Shown here: positions 947 to 10,122 of the stretch, one piece after another
Layout of the letters: each line of letters opens with the position of its first letter
Numbering within the stretch: the stretch's first letter is position 1
Assembly (NCBI RefSeq): GCF_023100685.1
Contig: NZ_CP090064.1
Coordinates: 2,232,001 to 2,296,000 of the forward strand
DNA length: 64,000 bases
Direction: 5' to 3'
DNA from: Proteus vulgaris
GTDB taxonomy: Bacteria; Pseudomonadota; Gammaproteobacteria; Enterobacterales; Enterobacteriaceae
Made by a program: the position numbers and the translations under genes
Notes under the pieces: model-generated
Database searches by the model: none
Told to the model about the DNA's origin: nothing
Seen by the model: the letters and a program-made list of their open reading frames with translations, nothing else

Positions 947-2287
947 TCAATACTTCAAGATTGCGTATTCATATTCACTTTTGTTATCAAGAACAAGTGT
1001 TTTATTTTTAATATCATAGTCAAAAATTAATTTAGTGTTATCTTCTAACGTAATATTCCTTCCAACTAATAATAACTCTGAAATATTAGAGTTAACAATA
1101 CCCATAATATTCATATATTTATCTAATGAAAAAGGCTTTCCTATAAGTTCTTTACTAACGAGGTTGACTAAGTTACAGTGTTGCTCATTAACATACGGTA
1201 ACTCTGTATTTATTAAATTCTTTATATTTTCTATATTATTATTACTTTTATCTTGTAATGATTTTTTATTTTCTATTTTAATTTTTATTGTGTTTTTACT
1301 ATTATCTTTTATAATATCTATTACCGTTTCTGCTGAATAAGGAACATTAATTAATCCCGCAAGTGTATCTTGTTTCATCAAAAATGATTTAAATTCAAGA
1401 AGTCCTTTTTGATATAATAAGGAATAAATTAGTTCCTTATCATTTTCATCCAAATCTGTAAATTCATTTTTTAATTTTTTAAATTCTAACTCTTTGAATG
1501 TTTTTTCGTCTAATTCTTGTGGTTTATTTCTTAGATCAGCAACGGAAATACTATTAATTTTCAATGACATCCTTGATAGGTCATTAAGTAGTTCAGCCTC
1601 AATTTTATCTAATAATCTTTTACCTTCTTTATTTGCTTTTTTTCTTTCATCTTCAATTAGTGCCTTTAATTCACTAGGAAACTTCTTGAAATCAAAATTA
1701 GCTTTTTTATATAATCTGTTTGTTAATATGAAATTTCTATCAAATTTATTTTCATTTACAACCTTAATTTTATTATTTATTAAATTGATAATAACTTCTT
1801 TTTTAATATCATCGATTTTATTAATGTTATTCTTGTTTTTTTCATCCCAGATTGCTATAGCATCAAATATAAACTCATCAAAATCATTTTCTTTTAATGC
1901 TATTATTATATCTGTTATTGATTTCAAATCATTGTCAATATCATTTATATTATATGAGAAGCTTATTTCTTCACTGTCAGGATTTTTATCCAATTTAATA
2001 GAACAAGTTATTTCATCATCGTTTTTTTCAATCAAAAAATTTTTTTTATATTCATTACCAGTAGTAAGGTTTTCTAATTTACAAAATCCAAGTATTTTAT
2101 CTAACTTAGATGTTTCATCATTAAAAAAAGTATTTTTAATTAATGGGATAACCGTGCTTTCTTGTCCAAAGCCAAACCAATTTTTTATTTTTTCCCATAT
2201 AGTTCTTGCATCTAGTGGATTGGATGCATCTTGTATTTGCTTTGCATTTACAGGACTTATTGAATAATCAGCAATTTTTATTGGCAT
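947..2287 (-). CDS. putative type III effector-like protein with SifA/SspH-type N-terminus
   Basis: 446 residues and very A+T-rich. The first about 120 residues resemble the N-terminal translocation domain shared by Salmonella SPI-2 effectors (SifA, SspH, SlrP). The protein opens MPIKI, compared with MPITI in SifA. Residues 31-38 read WEKIKNWF, close to the conserved WEK(I/M)xxFF motif, and a helical stretch and a beta-rich segment follow. There is no signal peptide and no membrane segment. Residues about 120-446 are charged and mostly helical, and I recognise no catalytic motif or leucine-rich repeats there. The gene stands alone, with no chaperone or secretion gene beside it, and its base composition suggests acquisition. 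The ORF is certain; the effector idea rests on the N-terminal resemblance only. Confidence 0.5.
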   Translation of the reverse strand: MPIKIADYSISPVNAKQIQDASNPLDARTIWEKIKNWFGFGQESTVIPLIKNTFFNDETSKLDKILGFCKLENLTTGNEYKKNFLIEKNDDEITCSIKLDKNPDSEEISFSYNINDIDNDLKSITDIIIALKENDFDEFIFDAIAIWDEKNKNNINKIDDIKKEVIINLINNKIKVVNENKFDRNFILTNRLYKKANFDFKKFPSELKALIEDERKKANKEGKRLLDKIEAELLNDLSRMSLKINSISVADLRNKPQELDEKTFKELEFKKLKNEFTDLDENDKELIYSLLYQKGLLEFKSFLMKQDTLAGLINVPYSAETVIDIIKDNSKNTIKIKIENKKSLQDKSNNNIENIKNLINTELPYVNEQHCNLVNLVSKELIGKPFSLDKYMNIMGIVNSNISELLLVGRNITLEDNTKLIFDYDIKNKTLVLDNKSEYEYAILKY

Positions 2288-9174: not shown

Positions 9175-9347
9175 AAATCCCTTCATTTTTTAAAAAGTAA
9201 CCTTCTTATCATAATATACTTAATGTCTTTTTCCAAAAAAATGTTATTGTAGTTAGTGTCAGCACAAAAATACCTTTAATATTTAATAATTAGTGCAATA
9301 ATACGTTATATTATCTTTTATAATAATTAAATATGTGAGGAGTTATT

Positions 9348-9389
9348 ATGCAGCCTATTCAGACAACCCGTTTTGCCCTTCTTCACTAA
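9348..9389 (+). CDS. 13-codon leader peptide of the cat gene
   Basis: The short ORF MQPIQTTRFALLH ends in TAA and starts 74 bp before the cat start codon. A strong GAGGAG lies 5 bp before its ATG. Its codons 10-12 form the left arm of a hairpin whose right arm is the cat ribosome binding site. Thr6-Thr7 provide the Ala/Ser/Thr penultimate-residue context in which chloramphenicol is known to stall ribosomes, and a ribosome paused at codons 7-8 would cover the left arm. This is the architecture of cat and erm translational attenuators. The function is inferred; the ORF and hairpin are plainly visible. Confidence 0.75.
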   Translation: MQPIQTTRFALLH

Positions 9390-9415
9390 GAAAATTATTA
9401 CTTAACAAGAAGGGC
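9375..9415 (+). promoter_or_regulatory. RBS-sequestering attenuator hairpin of cat
   Basis: Left arm GCCCTTCTT (9375-9383) is perfectly complementary to right arm AAGAAGGGC (9407-9415). A second inner pairing is TAAG (9387-9390) with CTTA (9401-9404). The right arm contains AAGAAGGG, the cat Shine-Dalgarno sequence, 7 nt before the cat ATG. There is no T run, so it is a translational rather than a transcriptional device. Confidence 0.8.
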
Positions 9416-9421
9416 TTAAAA

Positions 9422-10063
9422 ATGAATTATAAAAAAATCGATTTAGAACAATGGCATAGAAAAGAACACTTTTTACATTATCGTCATAACTTGCAATGTG
9501 GTTTTAGTTTGACAACTAAGTTAGATATTACGGCCTTAAGGGATATATTAACTAAAAATAATCTTAAGTTTTACCCTGTAATGATCTATTTGATTGCAAA
9601 AACGGTAAATTATTATCCTGAATCTAGAATGGCAATAAAGAATGATGAATTGGTTATTTGGGATTATATCAATCCTGCATATACGATTTTTCATCCAGAA
9701 ACGGAAACTTTTTCAGAGTTATGGAGTAAATATGTTGAAGATTGGCGTTCTTTTTTAAAAGAATATAAGCAAGATTATCAAAAGTATAAAGATAATCTGA
9801 ATCTATCTGCAAAACCTAATTTACCTGAAAATCATTTCTGTATTTCGATGATCCCGTGGGTAAGTTTTGATGGATTTAATTTAAATGTTGCTAATGTAAA
9901 AGATTATTTTCCTCCTATTTTTACTATGGGAAAATATATTCAACAAAATGAAAAATTTTTATTACCAATATCCATTCAAGTACATCACGCTACTTGTGAT
10001 GGTTTTCATATAGCAAGGATGATTAATAAACTTCAAGAGTTATGTGATGAGTTTTCAGTTTAA
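9422..10063 (+). CDS. cat: type A chloramphenicol O-acetyltransferase
   Basis: 213 residues, the normal length for trimeric CAT. It transfers acetyl from acetyl-CoA to the 3-hydroxyl of chloramphenicol and so inactivates the drug. Recognisable blocks are LEQWHRKEHF, MAIKNDELVIWD, YTIFHPETETFSELW, PWVSFDGFNLN and the catalytic VHHATCDGFH near the C-terminus. It is close to the Proteus chromosomal CAT as I know it. The ATG at 9422 is supported by AAGAAGGG upstream; a GTG at 9335 in the same frame would read through the leader region and is rejected. Expression is probably chloramphenicol-inducible through the leader ORF and hairpin upstream. Confidence 0.95.
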   Translation: MNYKKIDLEQWHRKEHFLHYRHNLQCGFSLTTKLDITALRDILTKNNLKFYPVMIYLIAKTVNYYPESRMAIKNDELVIWDYINPAYTIFHPETETFSELWSKYVEDWRSFLKEYKQDYQKYKDNLNLSAKPNLPENHFCISMIPWVSFDGFNLNVANVKDYFPPIFTMGKYIQQNEKFLLPISIQVHHATCDGFHIARMINKLQELCDEFSV

Positions 10064-10085: not shown

Positions 10086-10122
10086 AACTCGCCCTTTTAT
10101 CAATTAAATAAAAGAGCGAGTT
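10086..10122. terminator. bidirectional terminator between cat and the hydrolase gene
   Basis: AACTCGC-C-CTTTTAT pairs with ATAAAAG-A-GCGAGTT around a short loop, with A and T runs on both sides. It lies between two converging genes and can terminate both. Confidence 0.8.

Follow-up and report, generated by a model that had tools for sequence, protein, structure and literature searches.

What governs expression of the chloramphenicol acetyltransferase (CAT) gene on the Proteus vulgaris chromosome? The question is raised by a 64,000-nt stretch of this genome (contig NZ_CP090064.1, positions 2,232,001 to 2,296,000; referred to below as the window), in which a small open reading frame (ORF) and a potential RNA stem precede the cat gene. 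For Gram-positive bacteria, drug-inducible control of cat is textbook knowledge, and the Gram-negative example named in the review passages available to us is cmlA. A sequence-only reading of the locus had proposed a 13-codon leader with a good Shine-Dalgarno (SD) sequence, together with a perfect 9-bp stem between its codons 10-12 and the SD of cat. Both were confirmed: the leader encodes MQPIQTTRFALLH, and GCCCTTCTT is complementary to AAGAAGGGC over 9 bp with no mismatch (Table 1). The element is very probably a chloramphenicol-inducible translational attenuator, arrest and induction being predicted, and all the features that can be tested in the sequence fit an attenuator of the cat/cmlA kind. 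As far as sequence can tell, the leader peptides form a separate family, I-Q-T-(T/E)-R, common to the chromosomal cat of Proteus, to catII, to catIII and to the cat of a further genus.

The leader-plus-stem pattern was found in 15 of the 20 Proteus genomes examined, at one site each, and the reversed pattern in none. These 15 are the same genomes that hold an ortholog of the cat gene (78-100% identical); conservation of leader and stem among cat-bearing Proteus, a check that had been suggested along with the original proposal, thus holds in 15/15. Both arms are present and identical in 13/13 distinct Proteus sequences, all of which also carry a purine-rich SD-like stretch 5' of the leader; it is weakest (AAAGAG) in L042 and shifted in L031, where the leader start would be GTG or the next ATG. 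Mean pairwise identity, calculated on 10 of the 13 distinct sequences, is 100% for the arms and 92% for codons 4-8, with drift in codons 1-3 (75%), codon 9 (65%), the loop (71%), the spacer (73%) and the 60 nt upstream (54%). The cat gene itself is at 85% (third positions at 73%), and 2 of 625 nine-base windows within it are invariant in the same 10 sequences.

Altogether 19 distinct homologous leader ORFs were compared, 10 from Proteus, two from catII, one from catIII and six from the further genus (two encode one peptide). Thr6 is found in all 19; Ile4 and Arg8 each occur in 18 leaders, and residue 7 is either Thr (12 leaders) or Glu (seven). Since Arg8 is kept through codons that differ at two bases (CGT in nine leaders, AGA in nine) and Ile through three codons, the comparison points to selection acting on the leader peptide. 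The stem also covaries: at one pair Proteus has T-A, catII and catIII have G-C and the further genus has A-T, and a second compensatory change, C-G to T-A, occurs in Wohlfahrtiimonas only. In catII, a flanking pair that adjoins the stem core is broken.

Table 1. Features of the cat leader region in the P. vulgaris window (positions in the window)
Feature	Position	Strand	Basis or remark
Leader Shine-Dalgarno, GAGGAG	9337..9342	+	read from sequence
Leader ORF, 13 codons, MQPIQTTRFALLH	9348..9389	+	ATG 9348, stop TAA 9387-9389; homologous leaders elsewhere
Conserved peptide core I-Q-T-T-R, codons 4-8	9357..9371	+	conservation, geometry, drug context
Predicted stall: codon 7 in P site, Thr6 penultimate, Arg8 in A site	9357..9371		inferred
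Attenuator stem, left arm GCCCTTCTT (codons 10-12)	9375..9383	+	folding, conservation
Attenuator stem, right arm AAGAAGGGC, contains the cat Shine-Dalgarno	9407..9415	+	folding, conservation
cat, type A chloramphenicol O-acetyltransferase, 213 aa	9422..10063	+	NF000491 305.5 bits, cut-off 270

Chloramphenicol stalls ribosomes with Ala or, less strongly, Ser or Thr as the penultimate residue and no glycyl-tRNA in the A site (PMC8066774, in the part of the text available). Thr6-Thr7 had been recognized as a stall context; Thr6 fits this rule in 19/19 leaders, and because it is universal and residue 7 is Thr or Glu, the consistent prediction is that ribosomes stall when codon 7 has reached the P site and Arg8 the A site. 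In the cat-86 and cmlA leaders the stall comes before Lys, in the contexts Thr-Asp and Ala-Asp. The consequences of a halted ribosome for the stem were computed with a fold model in which its footprint, taken to extend from 12 nt before to 15 nt after the first P-site base, is blocked. In free RNA the SD core of cat is predicted to be sequestered, with an unpaired probability of 0.00 in the window sequence and of 0.00-0.07 over nine homologous leaders. The stem stays closed through P-site codon 4 and, with catIII (0.29) as the exception, nearly so at codon 5; it opens from codon 6-7 on, in agreement with the earlier expectation that a ribosome paused at codons 7-8 would open it. Once codon 7 occupies the P site, the SD core is unpaired with a probability of 0.68 in the window, 0.61 in catII, 0.88 in catIII and 0.53-0.92 in the six further-genus leaders. 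Leader nt 28 is the first base of the left arm in the window, catII, catIII and Wohlfahrtiimonas; in those Proteus sequences whose helix has 10 bp (L022/L035, L030) the arm begins at nt 27, and in the further genus at nt 28 or 29. By computation, the predicted stall site is placed for a halted ribosome to cover the left arm. We propose a switch of the known kind: when the drug is absent, the leader would be translated, the stem would re-form and little CAT would be produced. At low chloramphenicol the ribosome would halt once I-Q-T-(T/E) has been made, with codon 7 then occupying the P site, Thr6 as the penultimate residue and the Arg8 codon next in the A site. The front of the halted ribosome would cover the left arm and so free the SD of cat, and CAT synthesis would continue until the drug is destroyed.

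The stem taken singly is open to coincidence. For the 52-nt hairpin region the folding energy is -14.5 kcal/mol (z = -4.5; equally stable shuffles 0/200), and the energy of a 130-nt region is ordinary (z = -0.53; 57/200 shuffles equally stable), with the same stem in its centroid. A stem of at least this length on the SD appears in 31/5000 shuffles with the SD tail kept and in 122/5000 full shuffles, such that a single-sequence stem is only suggestive. The element passes beyond chance because leader and stem are conserved across Proteus, and with their recovery in catII, catIII and the further genus, a chance stem next to a chance small ORF is hardly credible. A transcription attenuator with the stem as its terminator can be given just as little weight: a hairpin with G-C pairs does precede cat, yet it is not followed by a U-run (GGGCUUAAAAAUG) and a terminator scan, which covers loops of 3-8 only, returned none at the stem, so that this candidate was rejected. 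Constant translational coupling, whereby leader translation would open the stem and set a steady cat level with no drug sensing, is unlikely. Coupling has in its favour that a ribosome modelled at the leader stop partly frees the SD as well; it needs no fixed peptide, however, yet Thr6 is invariant and Arg8 is kept via two codons, and the downstream gene destroys the same drug that prefers Ala, Ser or Thr at that position. Less likely still, though above coincidence or a terminator, is a leader that senses some other signal, be it another peptidyl-transferase drug, general translation stress or a shortage of Thr or Arg. Codons 6-8 do read Thr-(Thr/Glu)-Arg, and oxazolidinones such as linezolid likewise stall by nascent-chain context (PMC8987054, in the part available), but just one Thr codon is universal, which is few for starvation sensing, and the regulated gene is a chloramphenicol acetyltransferase.

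Several observations nonetheless weigh against a drug-inducible attenuator. The fold model does not single out codon 7, because all later codons, the stop included, open the stem too; exposure of the whole right arm is smaller than that of the SD core (0.31 in L022, 0.41 in catII, 0.63 in the window), and a Gram-positive comparison leader reached just 0.27-0.39 at codons 4-6. Thr and Ser are weaker stall contexts than Ala (PMC8066774, same limit), and the stem by itself is matched by 0.6-2.4% of shuffles. Natural variants depart from the conserved core, with Thr4 in G681 and, via a small leader change, Asn8 in G686. Finally, promoter-like sites are at background, nine in the stretch against 7.7 expected, and thus give no promoter support. 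With these points taken into account, a chloramphenicol-inducible translational attenuator is still the reading that we prefer.

A leader of the "Proteus-type chromosomal cat" had been envisaged; this stood within Proteus, but the leader is not Proteus-specific, as it precedes catII, catIII and the further-genus cat too. The "Proteus-type cat" was not borne out as one thing either, because a second, CatI-like CAT of the same genus, about 53% identical, lacks the element (L032 in G205; L033, the second copy in G214). The catII leader, MLPIETTRLPSDY, is homologous and has an 11-bp stem on the SD; its sources are Morganella and Providencia records, a Marinobacter contig and Klebsiella and Shewanella plasmids. 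The catIII leader, MLSIQTERMPF, is likewise homologous, with a 9-bp stem on the SD, and comes from Edwardsiella pEIB202 and a Providencia stuartii record. In P. stuartii NCTC11800 (L058, 3001-3631) the catIII frame is broken and the upstream leader and stem are intact. A covariance model trained on the 10 Proteus sequences only, and applied to 21 sources, scored catII at 33.6-36.4 bits and catIII at 25.7 bits (E = 0.0036), and gave nothing up to E = 1 in 12 CatI-type, other leaderless, Gram-positive and leader-truncated loci. Within the window, the same model matched its own stem in antisense at 22.2 bits and produced two chance matches at 18.1 and 16.9 bits.

A scan of the bacterial family with the same Proteus-only model returned 5/295 genomes: three are Proteus, one carries a cat of the catII type (L087) and one belongs to the further genus. 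Both family matches outside Proteus have a cat gene directly 3', and both are near the E <= 0.001 limit (3.7e-4 and 9.4e-4). The further genus holds a cat ortholog in 7/12 genomes, and the leader precedes 7/7 of these orthologs, with a stem of 10 bp from leader nt 29 (nt 28 in one); two of these seven leaders (G685, G686) escaped the model at E <= 0.001. One of the model's six matches in this genus, L090 (G681, 1501-1582, minus strand), was rejected as a false positive: it scores 37.2 bits and is an AT-rich inverted repeat just past an ORF end, with no leader motif and no cat, which calls for caution on model-only matches in AT-rich genomes. G686 (L097, L101) carries a leader without Arg8 and, as a second cat, a CatI-like copy (L101) from which the leader is absent; since Arg8 is lost and a leaderless cat is present, the leader in this genome may be relaxing. 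A class-wide scan of 369 genomes found CAT (catII query) in three and the model in one, which is the window's own, and a leader-only blastn against plasmids gave two unrelated matches at E = 3.

As controls, 31 CatI-like, other enterobacterial and Bacteroidota CAT loci were anchored on their own start codons (located in 30, L059 excepted). The leader motif was present in 0/31, the model gave one weak off-target match, away from the cat start (L008, 20.5 bits, E = 0.059), and a stem of at least 9 bp on the SD zone was seen in 1/31. The latter, L004, is an enterobacterial leaderless-type CAT with a perfect 9-10-bp stem to the cat SD, about 36 to 5 bases before the CAT start. Upstream of cat in Wohlfahrtiimonas populi (L043) lies a 14-codon leader, MKEKRAVDLALLTK, of unrelated sequence and with Ala6, which was set apart from the 19 counted leaders. 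Its 10-bp stem has a left arm from leader nt 28, the same position as in the window; its model score (20.2 bits, E = 0.064) is under that of the 22.2-bit antisense match and near the chance scores of 18.1 and 16.9, and SD exposure with codon 7 in the P site is 0.15. This leader is perhaps an independent attenuator. A CAT tree of 59 rows groups the 16 leaderless CatI-like and enterobacterial sequences together (99/98). It also joins Proteus to the further genus (93/92) and catII to catIII (99/94), and it places the catII/catIII pair next to 14 Bacteroidota CATs that have no leader (97/93). For the leader, these relationships allow a single old gain followed by loss in Bacteroidota, two gains, or transfer.

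On plasmids, the catII gene matched 637 records and its 81-base leader stretch 634, of which 594 cover at least 80% and 40 less. In L065 catII adjoins an IS26 transposase gene and is without leader and left arm, the SD being kept, and two further catII rows show a similar coverage. The catIII gene matched 11 plasmid records, one with the whole leader, four with only the last 32 bases including the SD and six with no match; leader and left arm are missing in L068, beside an IS5-family transposase gene, and in L063, behind sul2. Such leaderless plasmid copies should be derepressed. On balance we favour the broader view that one old I-Q-T-(T/E)-R family makes a Gram-negative CAT branch inducible, plasmid catII included, and that mobile-DNA rearrangement has repeatedly removed leader and left arm to leave leaderless, presumably constitutive alleles. 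If this is true, regulation extends to common CAT genes of Gram-negative bacteria, susceptibility tests may misread such genes when there is no pre-exposure, and an absent leader would be the mark of a presumed constitutive allele. With Thr6 invariant and Arg8 in the predicted A site, the leader would also lend itself, as a natural sequence, to work on the way in which chloramphenicol reads the nascent chain.

The gene downstream of the leader belongs to the type A chloramphenicol acetyltransferases, its NF000491 score exceeding the cut-off (Table 1), and is a single copy in its genome (4.39 Mb, one contig). Its product is 86-88% identical to those of P. vulgaris, P. cibi, P. faecis, P. penneri, P. 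terrae and P. columbae loci. The gene of a 165-aa neighbour protein adjoins cat in 21/21 Proteus loci (some being one sequence under two ids), and because this neighbour is kept throughout, the cat locus is, by its gene order, old within Proteus. A strong terminator-like hairpin of 16 pairs, with a T-run on the minus strand, lies at 10086-10122 of the window, between cat and a convergent 333-aa ORF. Rfam gave six matches up to E = 5, each below its gathering score.

A review table lists cat attenuators in "various species" (PMC5418344, in the part available). Among the matches listed for open-access PMC titles and abstract starts, none concerned a leader or attenuator of Proteus cat, catII or catIII; an earlier remark is possible, the older subscription literature being outside this scope. 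No leader annotation was present in ten plasmid records examined, whose gene tables are incomplete. Compared with known systems, the element resembles catA8, the attenuator of a Gram-positive plasmid cat (L066), which we take to be of the pC194 type, in having a short leader ORF whose late codons pair with the cat SD. The catA8 stem is 12 bp, Ser is the candidate penultimate residue and, with the catA8 stall codon that we assume, the arm starts 8 nt beyond the first base of the codon supposed to be in the P site, against 9 nt in Proteus. In contrast, the catA8 peptide is unrelated (MKKSEDYSS versus MQPIQTTRFALLH) and has 9 codons rather than 13, its arm starts from leader nt 21 rather than nt 28, and the model found nothing up to E = 1 in L066 and L074, which places catA8 outside the leader family. 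The cmlA system of integron cassettes is, like the present one, Gram-negative and chloramphenicol-responsive; its leader has 9 aa and arrests at KNAD with Ala penultimate (PMC8876359, PMC10192921, in the parts available). It differs in regulating an efflux gene and in its leader sequence, and two alternative stem-loop pairs are described for it in the accessible text, where one stem is seen in the Proteus element. CatII (catA2) and CatIII (catA3) have leaders homologous to that of Proteus, with the stem register shifted by 1-2 nt relative to the codons and the leader shortened or absent on some mobile copies. Altogether, the kind of control is already known, and the reach of this element is wider than the sequence-only reading had supposed.
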